From positions 1-34,871 of the IMG/VR virus record IMGVR_UViG_3300021197_001517: a stretch of DNA of 34,871 nt, one strand, 5' to 3'. The position numbers and the translations under genes are program-made. Position 1 is the first letter of the stretch. Every line of letters starts with the position of its first letter. Origin of the DNA: a virus. This document shows positions 2,232 through 34,871 of this stretch, piece after piece. The notes beneath the pieces were generated by a model that was not told where the DNA came from, searched no databases, and was given only the letters and a program-made list of their open reading frames with translations.

Positions 2232-2432
2232 ATGGGATTAACAAGACCAAAAATTGATCAAATGGAGGTTAGGAAAAAGCCTAAACTACAGGACAATGAT
2301 TTTATAATTGGCATGATAAAAAGTGCTATACGTTTAGGTGCATGCTATATGTTGTTCACAGGCAACATTGAAATGGCGGCCGCAACATTTGCTATTGCAG
2401 AATTTGCTGGTATAGGAAACAGACTTATCTAA
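2232..2432 (+). CDS. Small hypothetical protein, possibly membrane-associated
   Basis: A 66-residue protein with a basic N-terminal third (RPK, RKKPK) and a hydrophobic C-terminal half containing two apolar stretches (around 29-40 and 45-58), suggesting membrane association. The ATG at 2232 is preferred because GGAG at 2222-2225 is well spaced and because the promoter at 2154-2182 would start transcription near 2189, after the in-frame upstream ATG at 2181. If other promoters read through, the longer form from 2181 (83 aa) is possible. The stop codon overlaps the next start (TAATG), so it is coupled to the miniature polymerase-like gene. No family recognised. Confidence 0.55.
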   Translation: MGLTRPKIDQMEVRKKPKLQDNDFIIGMIKSAIRLGACYMLFTGNIEMAAATFAIAEFAGIGNRLI

Positions 2433-2992
2433 TGAGTGCTGATGTCGACATAGACTTTGCTGATAGGCAGCACATAATGGATCTAATCCAGTGTACCCCT
2501 GCAAGGCAAAATGCTGAAGGTCGTAAACACAACAGTGGAGTTTATGTTACACCAATACCTGTTGATGCACCCAATGGTTGTGCAAGTATAGACTATGAAT
2601 ATGCAGAACAACGTGGATATTTTAAACTTGACTTGCTTAACCAAAGTGTGTATACATTGATACGTGATCAAGCACACTATGATAGTATGTTGGCAAAAGA
2701 ACCAGAATGGCATAGATTAAATGACAAAAGTTTCTGTGAACGTGTAGTGCATATAGGCAACTACCACGATTTGCAAGTAGCAATGCAGCCTAACTCAATA
2801 GCTCGTATGGCAGCGTTTATAAGCATTATACGTCCAGGAAAAGCACACCTACAACACAAGCCATGGAAAGAAGTATTTGAAACTGTTTGGGACGGTGATG
2901 ATAGTGCTGGTTTTGTGTTTAAGAAATCACATGCAGTAAGTTATGCAAGTCTGGTTGCATTGCACATTAATCTACTTTGCGAACCAACGTAA
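2432..2992 (+). CDS. Miniature C-family (DnaE-like) polymerase-related protein
   Basis: In only 186 residues this protein carries, in the right order, short matches to landmarks of bacterial DNA polymerase III alpha: the acidic palm motif DVDIDF (D4, D6, D8), KHNSG at 32-36 (compare the H-x-x-G segment of DnaE), GYFKLDLL at 62-69 with D67 in the place of the third palm aspartate, IIRPG at 132-136, and KKSHAVSYA at 164-172 (compare NKSHAxAYA in DnaE). The PHP, most of the fingers, the beta-binding and the OB regions are absent; ordinary DnaE is over 1,000 residues. It could be a minimal palm acting with the larger DnaE-like protein at 6779-8473, or a regulator derived from one. It overlaps the opposing 125-aa gene by 26 bases. 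Homology is inferred from motif order; activity is unknown. Confidence 0.7.
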   Translation: MSADVDIDFADRQHIMDLIQCTPARQNAEGRKHNSGVYVTPIPVDAPNGCASIDYEYAEQRGYFKLDLLNQSVYTLIRDQAHYDSMLAKEPEWHRLNDKSFCERVVHIGNYHDLQVAMQPNSIARMAAFISIIRPGKAHLQHKPWKEVFETVWDGDDSAGFVFKKSHAVSYASLVALHINLLCEPT

Positions 2993-5379: not shown

Positions 5380-6782
5380 CAGAATATACATATGATGTAC
5401 AAAAATTATTCTTAGAAATGATGATGCATGATGCACAAAGTTTTCTTAGAGTACAAAACATATATAATGATGAAAACTTTGACAGAGACTTGAGAGAAAC
5501 TGCAAAGTTTATCTATGATCATGCTAACGAACACAAAACACTTCCAGACAGAGCTCAGATAAAAGCAGTAACTGGAATTGAACTTGTTGAGATTCCAGAT
5601 CTAAACAGTGGACATACAGATTGGTTCTTAGAAGAGTTTGAGGCATTTACTAGACGTACTGAACTAGAACGTGCAATACTTAAAAGTGCAGACTTACTTG
5701 AAAAAGGTGAGTATTCACCAGTTGAGAAACTGATTAAGGATGCAGTACAAATAAGTTTGACAAAGGATCTGGGTACAGATTATTTTGAGGATCCAAGAGC
5801 AAGACTTGCGGCACTGAAAGACAACAACGGACAAAACAGCACTGGTTGGCCTAAGTTGGACAAACTGCTATATGGTGGATTCAACAGAGGCGAACTACAG
5901 ATATTTGCAGGTGGTTCAGGATCTGGTAAAAGTTTGTTTATGCAAAACTTAGCAGTGAACTGGATGGAAGCAGGACTCAGTGGAGTATATATTACACTTG
6001 AATTAAGTGAAGGCTTGACTGCTATGCGTGTTGATAGTATGTTAACAAACACTCCAAGTAAACAGTTATTCAAAGACATTGAAACTGTTGAAATGAAAGT
6101 TAAGATGATGGGCAAGAAAGCAGGTGGCTTGCAAATAAAGTACATGCCTGCACAAAGCACAGTAAATGACATAAGAGCATTTGTAAAAGAACTAAGCATA
6201 AAGCAAGGCAAAAGCATAGACTTTATGTGTATTGACTATTTGGATCTGCTTATGCCAGTTAGTGCTAAAGTATCGCCAAATGATCTGTTTGTTAAGGACA
6301 AGTATGTTTCGGAAGAACTGCGTAACCTAGCAAGAGAACTGAACATACTGTTTGTTACTGCGTCACAGTTGAATAGAAGTGCAGTTGAAGAAGTAGAGTT
6401 TGATCATTCGCATATATCAGGTGGTATTAGTAAGATTAATACTGCTGATAACGTGTTTGGTATATTCACAAGTCGTGCAATGCGTGAACGTGGCAGATAT
6501 CAAATACAGGCTATGAAAACAAGAAGTTCAAGTGGTGTTGGTATGAAAGTGGACTTGGAGTTTGACATAGAAAGTTTACGTATACGTGACTTAGGAGATG
6601 ATGAAGAGTATCAACAGTTTAAGAAACAGAGTTCAAGTATCTATGATCAAATAAAAGCCAAGACACTTACAACAGATACTGCAAATGATGCAACTGTTGA
6701 AGACGAGCCAGGTAAGATTGTTGCTGATGTACAAAGTACAAAACTTAAACAGATGTTAGCAGGTATCAAGGCAAAAGGTTAA
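5376..6782 (+). CDS. Replicative DNA helicase, DnaB/gp41-like
   Basis: 468 residues, close to T4 gp41 (475). Residues 1-130 form the helical N-terminal domain. The RecA-like motor carries Walker A GGSGSGKS (179-186), an ELSE segment at 209-212 with the likely catalytic Glu, and Walker B FMCIDYLDLL (283-292), followed by a TASQLNRS stretch typical of SF4 helicases. It should form a hexameric 5'-3' helicase at the fork with the upstream primase, whose stop it overlaps (ATGA). The stop codon shares bases with the stop of the converging polymerase gene (TTAA at 6779-6782), with no terminator between them. Confidence 0.93.
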   Translation: MTEYTYDVQKLFLEMMMHDAQSFLRVQNIYNDENFDRDLRETAKFIYDHANEHKTLPDRAQIKAVTGIELVEIPDLNSGHTDWFLEEFEAFTRRTELERAILKSADLLEKGEYSPVEKLIKDAVQISLTKDLGTDYFEDPRARLAALKDNNGQNSTGWPKLDKLLYGGFNRGELQIFAGGSGSGKSLFMQNLAVNWMEAGLSGVYITLELSEGLTAMRVDSMLTNTPSKQLFKDIETVEMKVKMMGKKAGGLQIKYMPAQSTVNDIRAFVKELSIKQGKSIDFMCIDYLDLLMPVSAKVSPNDLFVKDKYVSEELRNLARELNILFVTASQLNRSAVEEVEFDHSHISGGISKINTADNVFGIFTSRAMRERGRYQIQAMKTRSSSGVGMKVDLEFDIESLRIRDLGDDEEYQQFKKQSSSIYDQIKAKTLTTDTANDATVEDEPGKIVADVQSTKLKQMLAGIKAKG

Positions 6783-8473
6783 GCATACTGATCAATAGGC
6801 ATTGCTTTTACATTTTTACGTTTTACTTTTAGATAGTTACTGTTGTCTTTGGTCCACATCTGTCCTTCACCAACAACCACTGTATCTCGAGAATACTTTA
6901 TAGGCCGATCAACAACAAGATCCACATAGCGACCCTCACCTACACCTAGTGTTATAAAGTGTATGTAATTTTTTGCATCGCTTTTGAATACTCTACTGGC
7001 GGCAATTATACCTGCAAATTGAAACTTGTCTAAGAATAAATTTTGCAATCCCATGTTTGGCAAAAAGCCAGGACTGTTCCAAGCACCATGTTGTTTAAAA
7101 CTTTCAACCGGATCCTCTGTAATCCAATTGTCAAAGCCTAAATCACGCAGATCCCAACCAGCACGTTTTGCTTCGTTACGATATACCCAACGTGCATAAC
7201 TTCCTTGGCAGTGTTTTAAACAAGCACGCCAGAACTCTTTTGGATTGTATACTTTATGATATGCCAGTGCCCATATAAGTCTGCCCAAGTTTACTGCGTG
7301 TGCTCTACACAAACCAAACCCACTTAGGCTTTGCATTTGTTCATAGATGTCATGCTTGTCTGGATGATCACCTAAGCGTGCCATAAACTGCATCATCTTT
7401 TCTTCATTCTTTTTGGCAAATGCACGTCTGTACATGTCTGCTTCATATGGTGATATACCAATCAACTTCATTATTTTGTGTATAGCATCATCTTCATACA
7501 CTATTGCATTCTTTTGTATGCCTTTTTCACTCCAGTCACGAAACCAACTGGCTTTACGTCTGCCTTCCATAGCAACAGGACGTACCAATGCACTGGCAAA
7601 CACACAGTCCTCAACTCCAGTTGGTTGCAATGCACGAAACAGTCTTTTCATTGTTGGTGACTCTCCTTGTGTCACACCAAGCACATCACCTCTGCATAGC
7701 AAATCAGCAACACGTTCATCCTGTTTTGGATAAGCATCCAGTCTTGTGTGAGGGTCTATTTCTAGTAACTGTGATAATCCTCTGTTGGCAAGTATGTCTA
7801 CCTTTAGATGTTCCAAATCTTCTACTTCATTTTTGTCAAGTAGTATAAGATTGTCATCACGGAATAAACTTTTTGGTAATGCTCTGTCAAACACAAGCAC
7901 ACCACCACAGTGTTTGCTTATACAACGTTTCTTGCCCATGAGTTTGCGTTCAATGCGAGTTGCTTCTTGTTCATCAACACCTAGTTTTACGTAGTCTATA
8001 TCTTTTGGCAGTCTGCCTTTTGCTCCAAGGCGTTTGGCAGCTTCACGACGTGCTGATTTTTCTCTGTAAAGCACATAGTTTGATATCCTAGCACTCTGTG
8101 TTGGCCATTTGTCAAACACACGTTGCATTGCAAGTTCTTGTTTGTGATGAGGTATGTCAATATCCACATCAGGCAAGTCATCTCTGTATGGATTTAAAAA
8201 TCTTGCCAGTGGTATGTTCCATTCAAGTGGATCAACGTCTGTTATGCCCATGAGATAGCAAACCAAACTGCTACCAGCACTGCCTCTGGTCATGTGTGGT
8301 ATGTCTTCGTTGAGATCAAGTATGAGTCTTATTTTGAGAAAGTAATCTGTAAAACGTTGCTGAAGTATAATTTCAAATTCTTCTGCTAGTCTGTTTTGAT
8401 ATTCTTCGCCTTGTGGAGTTGGTCTTCTAAATTGTTCTAATAATGATTGTATCTGTTCTATTTCTGTTTTCAT
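6779..8473 (-). CDS. C-family DNA polymerase, PHP-less DnaE-like
   Basis: 564 residues resembling the core of DNA polymerase III alpha. Visible landmarks: RGSAGSSLVCYLMGITDVDP (63-82), palm motif PDVDIDI (101-107), SKHCGGVLV (186-194), HLKVDIL with D226 as the third palm aspartate (222-228), a RPV-EGRR segment around 310, and GLCRAHAVNL matching the GxxKSHA segment. The last ~80 residues look like an OB fold. The N-terminal PHP domain of ordinary DnaE is missing, so the protein is about half the usual length and probably lacks intrinsic exonuclease activity. All three catalytic aspartates seem present. The ATG at 8473 follows three AGGCA repeats with 10-base spacing. It converges with the helicase gene. 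Confidence 0.88.
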   Translation of the reverse strand: MKTEIEQIQSLLEQFRRPTPQGEEYQNRLAEEFEIILQQRFTDYFLKIRLILDLNEDIPHMTRGSAGSSLVCYLMGITDVDPLEWNIPLARFLNPYRDDLPDVDIDIPHHKQELAMQRVFDKWPTQSARISNYVLYREKSARREAAKRLGAKGRLPKDIDYVKLGVDEQEATRIERKLMGKKRCISKHCGGVLVFDRALPKSLFRDDNLILLDKNEVEDLEHLKVDILANRGLSQLLEIDPHTRLDAYPKQDERVADLLCRGDVLGVTQGESPTMKRLFRALQPTGVEDCVFASALVRPVAMEGRRKASWFRDWSEKGIQKNAIVYEDDAIHKIMKLIGISPYEADMYRRAFAKKNEEKMMQFMARLGDHPDKHDIYEQMQSLSGFGLCRAHAVNLGRLIWALAYHKVYNPKEFWRACLKHCQGSYARWVYRNEAKRAGWDLRDLGFDNWITEDPVESFKQHGAWNSPGFLPNMGLQNLFLDKFQFAGIIAASRVFKSDAKNYIHFITLGVGEGRYVDLVVDRPIKYSRDTVVVGEGQMWTKDNSNYLKVKRKNVKAMPIDQYA

Positions 8474-30890: not shown

Positions 30891-33119
30891 ATGCTCTTAG
30901 GTTTATTAATATTATTCGTTGCATTAGCACTAAGTGGAATTGCCGCTTACTACAGTATCATTGGCTTGACTGCAATTTTTGCGGCGGCTGTTATACCTAT
31001 CATTGTTATGGGTGGCGTGCTTGAAGTTGCTAAATTAGCCTGTACTGTATGGCTACATCAAAACTGGCAACGTGCAAGATTTGTGATGAAATTGTATCTT
31101 GTTCCAGCAGTAGCAGTATTGATGTTTATTACTTCAATGGGTATATTTGGATTTTTAAGCAAAAGTCACATTGAACAAAGTGCCATGGGCACAGAGCAAA
31201 TTGAACAAGTAAAAGTCATTGACGACAAACTGCTTAGAGCACAAGCAAAAGTAGAACGTTGGAATACAGAAATTGGAAGGCTAAACAGAGGTGAGACATC
31301 AGGTCGTATAGATGGACTTATCACAAGAGAACAAGAACGTATTGACAATGCAAACAAACGTATACAACCACAGATAGATGCTGAAAATAGCAAAGTAAAA
31401 GGCTTGCGTCTACAAGCAGATAAAGAAATCGCACAACAAAACAAAAGACTTGGAGATGCACAAAAACGTACAAGTGCTGACATTGCGATTGCAGAAAAAC
31501 GACTGGCACAACTTGACAAAGACGTTGCGGCATATACATCACAGGGTACTACCACAGGAGGAGTATTTACTGCTGACGTTGATAACGTTAAGAAAGGCAA
31601 TCAACTACGTGCAAGCCAAAAGCCAGAAAGAGATGCATTAGAAAAAGCAATTGCAAAAGCAAAACGTACAGAAATTGGTGTAGCCAGTAGAGTACAACGT
31701 GAGATAACAAATATAAACAAACGACTAGCAGAACAGATAAAATCAGTTGAGGCAAACGTAGCCAAAATACGTACAGGAATTACAAAAACCATTGACAGTG
31801 CGAATGCAAACATTGCAAAATATACACTAGAAGCCGGAAGCAGTAATAAAAATGTTGACGTAAGGATAAAAGAACTTGAACTGAACATAGAAAACATTCA
31901 ACCACAAATCGACGGTTTACGTGAAGAAAAGTTTGTTTTTGAGAAGCAGTATCGACAGTTTGAAGCAGAGGTTGGTCCGGTTAAATACATAGCTCAACTG
32001 ATTTACGGTGATAATCCAGATCAGAATCTATTGGAAAGTGCTGTCCGTTGGGTTATAATACTAATCGTAGCAGTGTTTGATCCGCTTGCTATAATGATGT
32101 TACTTGCCGCGACTGAAACATTTGCATGGCGAAGACAGGATAAGGAGACAGCAGTTGAAACTGTTACGACGATGCCGAGCACACTGCCGGTTGAGGAGGT
32201 TGAAGAAGTTCAAGAGCAAGAAGCTCCAGATGAACCAGAGCCCGACCAGCCAGTTGAGGATGGACCAACAGATGAAGAGCCTGGTGAGACTAGAAGCGAG
32301 GATAAGTCTGATGGAGGAGAAACTGGAGTCAATATTGAAGAACCTAAGCAAGATCCTAAACCCTTAGAACGCACATTGCATGTAGAACATATTGTTTTAC
32401 CTGATCCTGATATGGATGCAATCAAAACCCCACAACAGGTTATATACGAAGACGAATATGTTCCAAATCAAGAAATTGAAGAAGAAGTTACAACAGAACA
32501 AGTAGAAGTAGAAGTAGACGTACCTGTTGAAAAAACTGCTAATATATATAACTGGCAAGAACATGCCGCAGAAGAAGATGTAGTTATTGTCAATACTGAC
32601 GGCAGGCAAGATGAGTCAATATATCTTGAAGAACCAACCGAAGAAGAAATAAATGAAATTGAAGAAGACATCTTTGAATGGAAAGAAGAAGATGAAGATG
32701 ATCCTACTAAACGTGCAAGACGTATCTGGAAACGTCTAAATCCAGATGACACAATGAAGAATCAAGAACAAATGTTTGCACGTAGGGAAATTGATGTATT
32801 ACCATGGGAGCAATACATTGATCAACCTGATGAAAAACTAGAACAATTTGCACAAAGCACATTTGGTGAAACATTTCCTACACATCCAATCAAAGGTGAC
32901 ACCTATGTAAAGACAGATGTTTTTCCTAGTACACTACACAAATTTAACGGTGAAGTTTGGATCACAGTAGACAAAGAAACTTCCGGATCTTATGTATATA
33001 ACGATATGTACATACAACATCTAATAGAAAAACTAGGTTCAGGCGAGTATGATCCTGAACTTCTCAATGATGCAGAACGTGCGGCGATAGAAGAGCAACT
33101 TAAAAAGGATGATCTATAA
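30891..33119 (+). CDS. Large membrane coiled-coil protein with acidic tail
   Basis: 742 residues. Three hydrophobic helices lie in the first ~90 residues (1-22, 25-50, 66-90), then a ~270-residue coiled coil rich in Lys, Glu, Gln and Asn, a fourth span near 383-405 (RWVIILIVAVFDPLAIMMLL), and a Glu/Pro-rich acidic stretch (~420-630). The last ~110 residues form a compact module (VLPWEQY, then YVKTDVFPSTLHKFNGEVW) that I recall in other T4-like marine phage proteins. It may span the inner membrane with a long periplasmic or cytoplasmic coil, and might contribute to replisome anchoring, superinfection exclusion or DNA entry; none of this is proven. Coupled to clpX (TAATG). Confidence 0.72.
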   Translation: MLLGLLILFVALALSGIAAYYSIIGLTAIFAAAVIPIIVMGGVLEVAKLACTVWLHQNWQRARFVMKLYLVPAVAVLMFITSMGIFGFLSKSHIEQSAMGTEQIEQVKVIDDKLLRAQAKVERWNTEIGRLNRGETSGRIDGLITREQERIDNANKRIQPQIDAENSKVKGLRLQADKEIAQQNKRLGDAQKRTSADIAIAEKRLAQLDKDVAAYTSQGTTTGGVFTADVDNVKKGNQLRASQKPERDALEKAIAKAKRTEIGVASRVQREITNINKRLAEQIKSVEANVAKIRTGITKTIDSANANIAKYTLEAGSSNKNVDVRIKELELNIENIQPQIDGLREEKFVFEKQYRQFEAEVGPVKYIAQLIYGDNPDQNLLESAVRWVIILIVAVFDPLAIMMLLAATETFAWRRQDKETAVETVTTMPSTLPVEEVEEVQEQEAPDEPEPDQPVEDGPTDEEPGETRSEDKSDGGETGVNIEEPKQDPKPLERTLHVEHIVLPDPDMDAIKTPQQVIYEDEYVPNQEIEEEVTTEQVEVEVDVPVEKTANIYNWQEHAAEEDVVIVNTDGRQDESIYLEEPTEEEINEIEEDIFEWKEEDEDDPTKRARRIWKRLNPDDTMKNQEQMFARREIDVLPWEQYIDQPDEKLEQFAQSTFGETFPTHPIKGDTYVKTDVFPSTLHKFNGEVWITVDKETSGSYVYNDMYIQHLIEKLGSGEYDPELLNDAERAAIEEQLKKDDL

Positions 33120-34324
33120 TGTCAATTGACAAAGAGCAGTACAATAAGTGTGATTTTTGTAAAAAAGAAAAGAATCAAGTCCAAAAATTGATTGTAGGCG
33201 ACAGTGTTGCTATTTGTAATGAATGTGTAAACTTATGTGGAGATTTGTTAACATCTTTGGCAAAAGAAACAGTTGACGCAATCACATACAAAGACATCGA
33301 TCCAAAAGAATTAAAGGATTTTTTAGACAAATATGTGATCGGCCAAGATGATGCAAAAACAGTACTAAGTGTTGCGGTTGCAAATCATTATAAAAGAATT
33401 CAAAACAAATCAAAAGAATTGGAACTAGATAAGGCTAATGTGTTGTTATTAGGGCCAACTGGTTGTGGTAAAACATTACTGGCAAAATCAGTAGCAAGGT
33501 ACTTAGATGTGCCATTCGCAGTAACCGATGCCACAAGTATAACTGAGGCAGGTTATGTAGGAGACGATGTAGAAACACTAATTGGAAAACTACTAAGCAA
33601 TGCAGGTGGTGATGTTGAAAAGTGTCAAAAAGGTATAATATTCCTCGATGAAATTGATAAAATCTCACGTAAAAGCGAAAATAGTTCTATCACACGTGAC
33701 GTAAGTGGAGAAGGTGTACAACAAGCATTGCTAAAGGTAGTAGAAGGAACTGTTTGTAGGGTTCCAGCACAAGGTGCAAGTCGTAAAAACCCACAGGCTG
33801 AGATGGTAGAAGTTGATACATCAAACATATTGTTTATAGCTGGTGGAGCATTTGTTGGTATCAATGATGTAATTAAAAGACGGGCTGAAGGTTCAGGTAT
33901 AGGCTTTGGAGTTGATGTAAAAACAAATGCTGAAGGAAAACTTGGCGATATGGAACCGGATGACCTGGTAAAGTTTGGAATGATACCCGAGTTTGTAGGT
34001 AGATTTCCGACCTGGGTAGGACTAACACAACTAACAGAAGAACAATTGAAGTTTGTGCTTACAGAAATTAAGAATAGTCTAATAGCTCAATACACTTACT
34101 TGTTTGAAACAGATGGTGTGAAACTAAAGTTTAGTGATGAAGCACTGCTTGAGATCGCAAAAAATGCGGCAACACGTAAAACTGGAGCAAGAAGTTTGCA
34201 AGCCGAGCTTGAACGAATATTGATGCCGCATATGTTTAGCCTAAAAGAATATGCTAAACAGGATATTACCGAAGTAGTTATAACTCCAGGACTAGTTAAG
34301 AAACCAATTAAATTAGCTGCCTAA
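33119..34324 (+). CDS. clpX: ClpX-like AAA+ unfoldase
   Basis: 401 residues, nearly full-length ClpX. The N-terminal zinc-binding domain has C11, C14, C33 and C36. The motor shows GPTGCGKT (112-119), pore loop GYVG (145-148), Walker B IIFLDEID (173-180), and sensor-2 RKTGARSL. The IGF tripeptide (261-263) that docks bacterial ClpX on ClpP is kept, so it could recruit host ClpP. In the RKH loop, which reads degradation tags, the histidine is replaced: R222-K223-N224. No ClpP gene is visible in the window. It is the last gene of the ligase operon and its stop overlaps the stop of the converging peptide gene. Confidence 0.93.
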   Translation: MSIDKEQYNKCDFCKKEKNQVQKLIVGDSVAICNECVNLCGDLLTSLAKETVDAITYKDIDPKELKDFLDKYVIGQDDAKTVLSVAVANHYKRIQNKSKELELDKANVLLLGPTGCGKTLLAKSVARYLDVPFAVTDATSITEAGYVGDDVETLIGKLLSNAGGDVEKCQKGIIFLDEIDKISRKSENSSITRDVSGEGVQQALLKVVEGTVCRVPAQGASRKNPQAEMVEVDTSNILFIAGGAFVGINDVIKRRAEGSGIGFGVDVKTNAEGKLGDMEPDDLVKFGMIPEFVGRFPTWVGLTQLTEEQLKFVLTEIKNSLIAQYTYLFETDGVKLKFSDEALLEIAKNAATRKTGARSLQAELERILMPHMFSLKEYAKQDITEVVITPGLVKKPIKLAA

Positions 34325-34434
34325 CTGGCTTGTTTGCATATGCAAGACGATTTGCGATAGTTCAGTATTTTATGAACTAGAGCACGATTTCGTGCGTCAG
34401 CAAACTTCTTCCATTGATATGGTCTGTAAGTCAT
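34321..34434 (-). CDS. 37-aa basic peptide downstream of a glutamine-type riboswitch
   Basis: A short minus-strand ORF encoding 37 residues: MTYRPYQWKKFADARNRALV followed by HKILNYRKSSCICKQAS. It is strongly basic with no acidic residue except one Asp. GGAGG (34447-34443) lies eight bases before the ATG, the best ribosome site in the window. The stop shares bases with the clpX stop (CTAA). The leader is a glutamine-riboswitch-like RNA. Known Downstream-peptide riboswitches also precede very short ORFs. Function unknown; in cyanobacteria glutamine riboswitches control small basic proteins that inhibit glutamine synthetase, which makes a similar role conceivable. Confidence 0.7.
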   Translation of the reverse strand: MTYRPYQWKKFADARNRALVHKILNYRKSSCICKQAS

Positions 34435-34460
34435 TTTGCCACCCTCCCTAAGTAAATGGT

Positions 34461-34510
34461 TAGGTGCGTTCCTTCAGCGATTGCCTACTTCCGCCCTCTC
34501 GGGTGAACGT
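34461..34510 (-). ncRNA. Glutamine riboswitch-like aptamer (Downstream-peptide/glnA type)
   Basis: Read on the minus strand from 34509: CGUUC, ACCC-GAGA-GGG-C, GGAAGUAGG, a short variable part, CUGAAG, GAACGC and ACCUA. P1 is CGUUC (34509-34505) with GAACG (34471-34467). P2 is CCC-GAGA-GGG. The pieces CGGAAGUA and CUGAAGGAACGC match the conserved glnA/Downstream-peptide core as I remember it. UAGG (34487-34484) can pair with CCUA (34464-34461), the pseudoknot expected for the Downstream-peptide form. CACCC (34504-34500) could instead pair with GGGUG next to the ribosome site of the peptide gene, giving a simple switch. Confidence 0.85.
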
Positions 34511-34515
34511 ACTTT

Positions 34516-34523
34516 TATTTATA
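34516..34523 (-). promoter_or_regulatory. T4-late-type promoter element (TATAAATA) of the riboswitch transcript
   Basis: An exact TATAAATA on the minus strand. The predicted +1 is 34510 or 34509, the first base of the aptamer P1 helix, so the RNA would begin with the aptamer itself. Confidence 0.65.
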
Positions 34524-34553
34524 ACATTTGTTATGCAAAACACAAGAAAAAGG

Positions 34554-34582
34554 TTGCTCTTTTTGCATATTCCGGTTATACT
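34554..34582 (+). promoter_or_regulatory. Weak sigma70-like promoter, predicted leaderless
   Basis: -10 TATACT (34577-34582) with a poor -35 TTGCTC (34554-34559) at 17 bases. The predicted +1 at 34589 is the A of the ATG of the 77-aa gene. No SD is present. Confidence 0.45.
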
Positions 34583-34588
34583 ATGTGT

Positions 34589-34822
34589 ATGTATAAAGGT
34601 AAACAAGTTCATTTTTTTGGTTTTAGAGGCTATGAGTACGTCAGTGCAGTAAGAGTTTGGGGTCAGCCTGACTTCATACATCCTGTGCATGATAGACGTA
34701 GTTACATAGAGTACGACCCTATCAATGACATTGGTATCTTTGCAAATAAAGAAACAGAAGAACTAATACACAGTTACAGACGTGAATACGCCGATATGAA
34801 TAAAAAGGTTGACAATGTCTAA
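34589..34822 (+). CDS. Small hypothetical phage protein
   Basis: 77 residues from ATG 34589; ATG 34583 would add two residues. The frame extends further upstream, but that part overlaps the riboswitch on the other strand and reads as non-coding. Beta-rich first half (KQVHFFGFRGYEYVSAVRVW), then QPDFIHPVHDRR and a charged helical tail. The pattern recalls small conserved proteins of T4-like cyanophages; no known function. The promoter of the next gene lies within its 3' end. Confidence 0.6.
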   Translation: MYKGKQVHFFGFRGYEYVSAVRVWGQPDFIHPVHDRRSYIEYDPINDIGIFANKETEELIHSYRREYADMNKKVDNV

Positions 34823-34836
34823 TACTGTGCTATACT
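34809..34836 (+). promoter_or_regulatory. Sigma70-like promoter for the gene leaving the window
   Basis: -35 TTGACA (34809-34814), a 16-base spacer and -10 TATACT (34831-34836) with an extended TGC. Predicted +1 is about 34843, followed by AGGAG and an ATG at 34869. Confidence 0.7.
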
Positions 34837-34868
34837 GTTTATATTGTTAGAGAATAGGAGACTTTACA

Positions 34869-34871
34869 ATG
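34869..34871 (+). CDS. Start codon of a gene continuing beyond the window
   Basis: The window ends on ATG, preceded by AGGAG (34857-34861) at seven bases and by a sigma70-like promoter. Only the start codon is present, so nothing can be said of the product. Confidence 0.55.

Follow-up and report, generated by a model that had tools for sequence, protein, structure and literature searches.

A putative relocating phage cassette that joins a late-type promoter element and a glutamine riboswitch to the gene of a tiny basic peptide

Glutamine riboswitches that precede small genes have been described in cyanobacteria, and glutamine riboswitches have also been reported from phages. The gifB leader of cyanobacteria has an aptamer of type 1 (RF01739) followed by the gene of a small protein, and the review PMC6316151 describes IF7 and IF17 as small cyanobacterial proteins that are rich in positive charge and lie under glutamine riboswitch control. 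The same review reports that both glutamine riboswitch types tested in cyanobacteria activate expression and that the binding mode of IF7 is electrostatic. The type 2 glutamine riboswitch, RF01704, likewise places a glutamine aptamer directly upstream of reading frames of 17-100 aa (PMC2864571). Among phages, glutamine riboswitches have been published for Melnitz, for Mosig and for Prochlorococcus phage AG-345-P14 (PMC9004378).

Here we analyse a unit of this kind in a 34,871-base record from a marine virus of bacteria; the whole stretch is referred to below as the window. We consider it likely, as the best explanation overall, that the unit is a relocating phage cassette composed of a late promoter, a type 1 glutamine aptamer, a hairpin that holds the ribosome site and a tiny basic peptide gene. 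In cyanobacterial RF01739 leaders, too, a ribosome-site hairpin abuts the aptamer helix P1; the window unit differs from the gifB leader in being phage-borne, in its late-type promoter element, in encoding a peptide unrelated to IF7 and in being a mobile cassette. It differs from RF01704 in having the RF01739 structure with P3 and no RF01704 match. Melnitz and Mosig carry phage-borne RF01739 as the window does, with a small reading frame directly downstream, but the peptide sequences of the Melnitz, Mosig and AG-345-P14 group (PMC9004378) differ from those of the window peptide and its relatives, which we term family A. Phage glutamine riboswitches and riboswitch-peptide pairs are thus already known, whereas the peptide families, the fusion to a late promoter, the ribosome-site hairpin and the mobility are new. 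In the open full-text literature we found no paper that describes the phage peptides as a class.

Layout of the unit and its leader

The late element, the aptamer, the GGAGG ribosome site and the 37-codon reading frame that a sequence-only reading had placed in succession on the minus strand are all present there (Table 1). A covariance search with Rfam bears out the phage-borne glutamine aptamer of that reading. The RF01739 match has E-values of 4.4e-9 over the whole window and 6.4e-11 over 501 bases, and it is the sole match in the window above its Rfam gathering score, which for RF01739 is 35 bits. Of the two families that had been put forward for checking, glnA (RF01739) is the one that matches; the Downstream-peptide family (RF01704) has no gathering-score match in the window and none at E up to 5 in 34200-34700. 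Pair counts over 28 leaders support the aptamer helices P1-P3. The UAGG/CCUA pseudoknot that had also been proposed is not supported, as 85.7% of cells are paired, two-sided changes are absent and the result is no better than that of shuffles. The aptamer is separated from the downstream start codon by 28 nt.

Table 1. Positions of the unit, its parts and its convergent neighbour in the window.
Feature	Position	Strand	Basis
T4-type late promoter element TATAAATA	34516..34523	-	sequence; positional enrichment in viral leaders
Glutamine riboswitch aptamer, type 1 (RF01739)	34463..34511	-	cmscan, full model, 53.0 bits
Aptamer helix P1	34509-34505 paired with 34471-34467	-	
Ribosome-site hairpin, CACCU (34466-34462) with GGGUG (34444-34440)	34440..34466	-	covariation, partner-swap test
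Shine-Dalgarno GGAGG, within the hairpin	34443..34447	-	sequence
37-codon ORF MTYRPYQWKKFADARNRALVHKILNYRKSSCICKQAS, family A (ATG at 34434, stop 34323-34321)	34321..34434	-	peptide-only patterns, in-frame selection
Putative relocating cassette, extent	34325..34536	-	missing at the orthologous site of relative G001, elsewhere in G001
ClpX-like gene, convergent neighbour outside the unit	33119..34324	+	Pfam zf-C4_ClpX and AAA_2

The ribosome-site hairpin abuts P1 with no linker, beginning at the very next base, and most phage leaders enclose their ribosome site in a hairpin that likewise begins right after P1. Its stem reads CACCU/GGGUG in families A, D and E, and CAUCU/AGAUG or CAAUC/GAUUG in family F. 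Over 28 leaders, 99.3% of the hairpin cells are paired and three of the five pairs show two-sided changes; the covariation score was reached by none of 500 shuffles, which we take as support and not as a probability because the leader sequences are related and not independent. When stem partners were exchanged between leaders, the helix score, on average 12.00 for the true partners, fell to 10.04 +/- 0.15. A different pairing, of CACCC in P2 with GGGUG, had originally been suggested to hide the ribosome site. Its covariation does not exceed that of shuffles, and as the candidate switching pair it is replaced by the covarying CACCU/GGGUG hairpin. Energy folding gave no signal of a two-state switch: the hairpin forms with and without the aptamer, and such a switch is therefore not predicted.

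We scored the layout across leaders as a helix of at least 5 bp that starts at P1 and closes near the ATG. It is present in 94 of 111 phage leaders, in 11 of 12 leaders of the DUF4278/IF7 group, which are mostly cyanobacterial, and in all eight leaders of cellular small peptides. It is scarcer in amt (4/16) and glnA (2/15) leaders, most of which have a different, longer layout.

The late box of T4 spans -13 to -6. Counted in this way, the element in the window predicts 34510 as +1. This base immediately precedes P1, and the earlier placement of +1 on the first base of the aptamer was thus correct to within 1 nt. By count alone TATAAATA is unremarkable, with five occurrences in the window against 3.06 expected; what is significant is where it stands relative to the aptamer. 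It stands 12-23 nt before CGTTCA in 58 of the 127 distinct single viral leaders listed, as opposed to 1 of 118 cellular leaders, and shuffled upstream regions of the viral leaders contain 0.28 occurrences on average against the 58 observed. This positional enrichment argues for the fusion of a late-type promoter to the riboswitch, as had been claimed. In many tandem arrangements, an upstream aptamer stands where the promoter element would be. One family A contig, G011, encodes a gp33-like late coactivator (PF16805) and another encodes a T4-type portal; the window record and its near relative G001, both of them fragments, yielded no match to gp33 or to the T4 portal.

The peptide gene and its genomic setting

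Two degenerate DNA patterns that use peptide-coding letters only were scanned over the viral_contigs collection. Together with the window, these peptide-only patterns gave at least 51 rows, among them the window copy (L001) and at least 49 further loci; pattern scans catch only close matches, and the locus counts are lower bounds. The family A consensus is MTYRP(F/Y)xWKxFxxARxRAxVHKILNYR. An aptamer core lies 56-63 nt upstream of the ATG in every listed family A row (51/51), and each of the 22 family A records searched for RF01739 has it exactly once. The pN/pS ratio, computed from 32 distinct 25-codon cores, is 0.36 in the reading frame of the peptide, and the two alternative frames give 1.10 and 1.26. 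The family A peptide evolves as coding sequence under purifying selection and is a real gene, and the constant presence of the aptamer upstream of the listed copies further sustains the original view of the tiny peptide as the controlled gene.

The window peptide has a pI of 10.2. It has no known relatives in the libraries searched and no Pfam match, including to DUF4278 (YRG, PF14105), against which a phage peptide of family B reaches 19.9 bits and thus misses the 25.3-bit cut-off. Homology between family A and IF7 was not detectable (hhalign probability 0.2%), and the similarity of family D to IF7 is not significant. Among deposited phages, the best family A match has E = 8 only; ten host genomes gave no match to the family A peptide, in a search run without a positive control, and psbA, a marker of cyanobacterial hosts, occurs in none of the family A records. 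AlphaFold run without an alignment models the window peptide as a single helix over residues 5-35 (mean pLDDT 74), and a fold search with this model returned no match.

Evidence for relocation comes from G001, a 98-kb relative with 73-96% identity to much of the window. In G001, the clpX stop (76497) is directly joined to sequence that matches window position 34537, and this junction at 76497/76498 means that the cassette interval of Table 1 is absent from the site. The unit is located elsewhere in G001, at 6075-6309, with about four differences from the window copy by our own count on the alignment. In both records a convergent reading frame ends within the stop of the peptide gene; in the window this frame is the ClpX-like gene, and the two stop codons overlap. 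The other flank of the cassette looks by eye, in both, like a divergent sigma-70-type promoter. Recombination at promoter-like repeats is a possible route of cassette movement. Family A units as a whole occur in several different gene contexts, and no DNA relatives of the unit region were found among deposited phages.

Beyond the unit, window 34799-34871 contains a strong sigma-70-like promoter, TTGACA-16-TATACT (34809-34836), with at least three similar copies in G001; this stretch and its copies may be shuffling sites. The remaining gene content of the window includes DNA polymerase, primase, helicase, ribonucleotide reductase and ligase genes together with structural genes. Two DNA-polymerase-like frames, at 2432-2992 (+) and 6779-8473 (-), both match phrog_405 although they lie several kb apart on opposite strands, and are possibly the parts of a split polymerase.

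Spread among marine phages and bacteria

Riboswitch-peptide units of the same kind are present in well over a hundred further sequences of marine phages, and the aptamer scan of viral_contigs returned at least 120 stretches. Each of the 112 distinct viral leaders scored leads within 40 nt to a reading frame of 15-90 aa, which fits the earlier claim of a tiny-peptide target; 21 of 110 cellular leaders have such a frame. The other cellular leaders largely precede ammonium transporter, glutamine synthetase and glutamate synthase genes, as read from the sequence without a profile search.

The phage peptides form at least eight groups, and among them are several families missing from the libraries searched. 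A pI above 9 was calculated for 99% of the 121 distinct phage peptides listed, with a median of 10.4. For some groups, isolates indicate the host. Family E occurs in Pelagibacter phages; the riboswitch is present in Mosig, and none was detected next to the peptide gene of HTVC104P or HTVC023P. YRG peptides occur in cyanophages, and the host of Melnitz is OM43.

RF01739-like aptamers are also frequent outside cyanobacteria, at genome_contigs loci L167-L285 with the labels SAR11, SAR86, SAR116 and others. This frequency in non-cyanobacterial contigs contradicts the statement that glutamine riboswitches are restricted to cyanobacteria (PMC6316151). Stand-alone small peptides related to families C and F lie behind tandem glutamine aptamers at L180, L229, L230, L243, L284, L192 and L242, on bacterial contigs, SAR86 among their labels, that appear to be chromosomal. 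In marine alphaproteobacterial contigs, a conserved gene of 468 aa is often found 3' of the glutamine aptamer (L168 and similar loci).

Proposed function and rival explanations

We propose that, late in infection, a phage-modified RNA polymerase would start at the aptamer or one base before it, as the promoter-like sequence and its position suggest. A start at the aptamer would make the leader all sensor and switch. The aptamer would bind L-glutamine, as expected from its family membership, and the hairpin that begins at the end of P1 would hold the ribosome site, in keeping with its covariation. Glutamine binding would free the ribosome site, so that the peptide would be made when glutamine is plentiful, and the peptide may then act on host nitrogen metabolism.

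For the last of these steps there are two readings. A nitrogen role is indirectly supported by the glutamine sensor, by the small basic bacterial peptides under the same switch and by the electrostatic binding described for IF7. The peptide might equally well act elsewhere, for instance on RNA polymerase, ribosomes, nucleic acid or lysis, with glutamine as a host-state signal only. Helical peptides this small and this basic could have many acidic binding partners, and some pelagiphages have family E or D-like domains with no riboswitch upstream; on the other side, the bacterial relatives of families C and F, in apparently chromosomal contigs, are single genes behind the same riboswitch, which fits nitrogen homeostasis but does not prove it. 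Within the nitrogen reading, glutamine synthetase as the specific target, by likeness to small basic glutamine synthetase-binding proteins, is a speculative suggestion that we rate as unlikely. We place similarly little weight on the widest form of the idea, in which marine phages would carry glutamine-induced, late-expressed cassettes of very basic micro-peptides and would use them to redirect nitrogen assimilation much as glutamine synthetase inactivating factors do, in hosts from which no such factor is known.

As to polarity, we lean towards an ON switch, with the peptide made at high glutamine, the model being the cyanobacterial leaders that share its layout. Glutamine is reported to activate expression through the cyanobacterial riboswitches (PMC6316151), and the DUF4278/IF7 leaders have this layout, which makes ON the better guess. 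The folding runs leave unexplained how an intact P1 would open the adjoining hairpin. In the opposite arrangement, glutamine would stabilise P1 stacked on the hairpin and keep the ribosome site shut, so that the peptide would be made at low glutamine. The linker-free junction makes such stacking plausible and folding allows P1 and the hairpin simultaneously, yet the same-layout cyanobacterial leaders belong to a class reported as glutamine-activated, and amt and glnA, for which one would expect repression when glutamine is abundant, mostly have the other layout. We regard this inverse polarity as possible but rather improbable.

Very unlikely, in our assessment, is that the reading frame is a mere frame or a leader peptide and that the riboswitch RNA, or an antisense transcript into clpX, is what matters. 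A search around the end of the 37-codon ORF gave no terminator-like site, and a transcript could therefore enter clpX on the opposite strand; against this, the peptide is under purifying selection, the varied gene contexts of the relatives leave no fixed antisense target, and no gene follows on the minus strand in the window. Chance capture of a non-functional host riboswitch fragment, which the abundance of glutamine riboswitches in marine bacteria would make easy, is hardly credible in the face of peptide selection, hairpin covariation, a late element at a fixed distance and the near identity of the units in the window and G001.

If the cassette functions as we propose, lytic phages would use RNA to sense a metabolite of the host at a late stage of infection and would respond with a dedicated micro-peptide, and phage nitrogen control would be directly testable with a unit of ~200 bp. 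The same layout bears on a published case. The Melnitz riboswitch is annotated inside the tmRNA gene and is said to control tmRNA (PMC9004378; MZ577097.1). In the coordinates of locus L286 from that record, the Rfam matches lie at 1974-2391 for the tmRNA and at 2399-2447 for the riboswitch, and the riboswitch is followed by a ribosome-site hairpin similar to those described here and a same-strand 32-aa reading frame, MTLYQQWCYLKAQKEYRRRQKILMYFRIRLKG, that is unannotated there (L286:2399-2568). This order suggests that the published Melnitz riboswitch controls the overlooked 32-aa peptide and not tmRNA.
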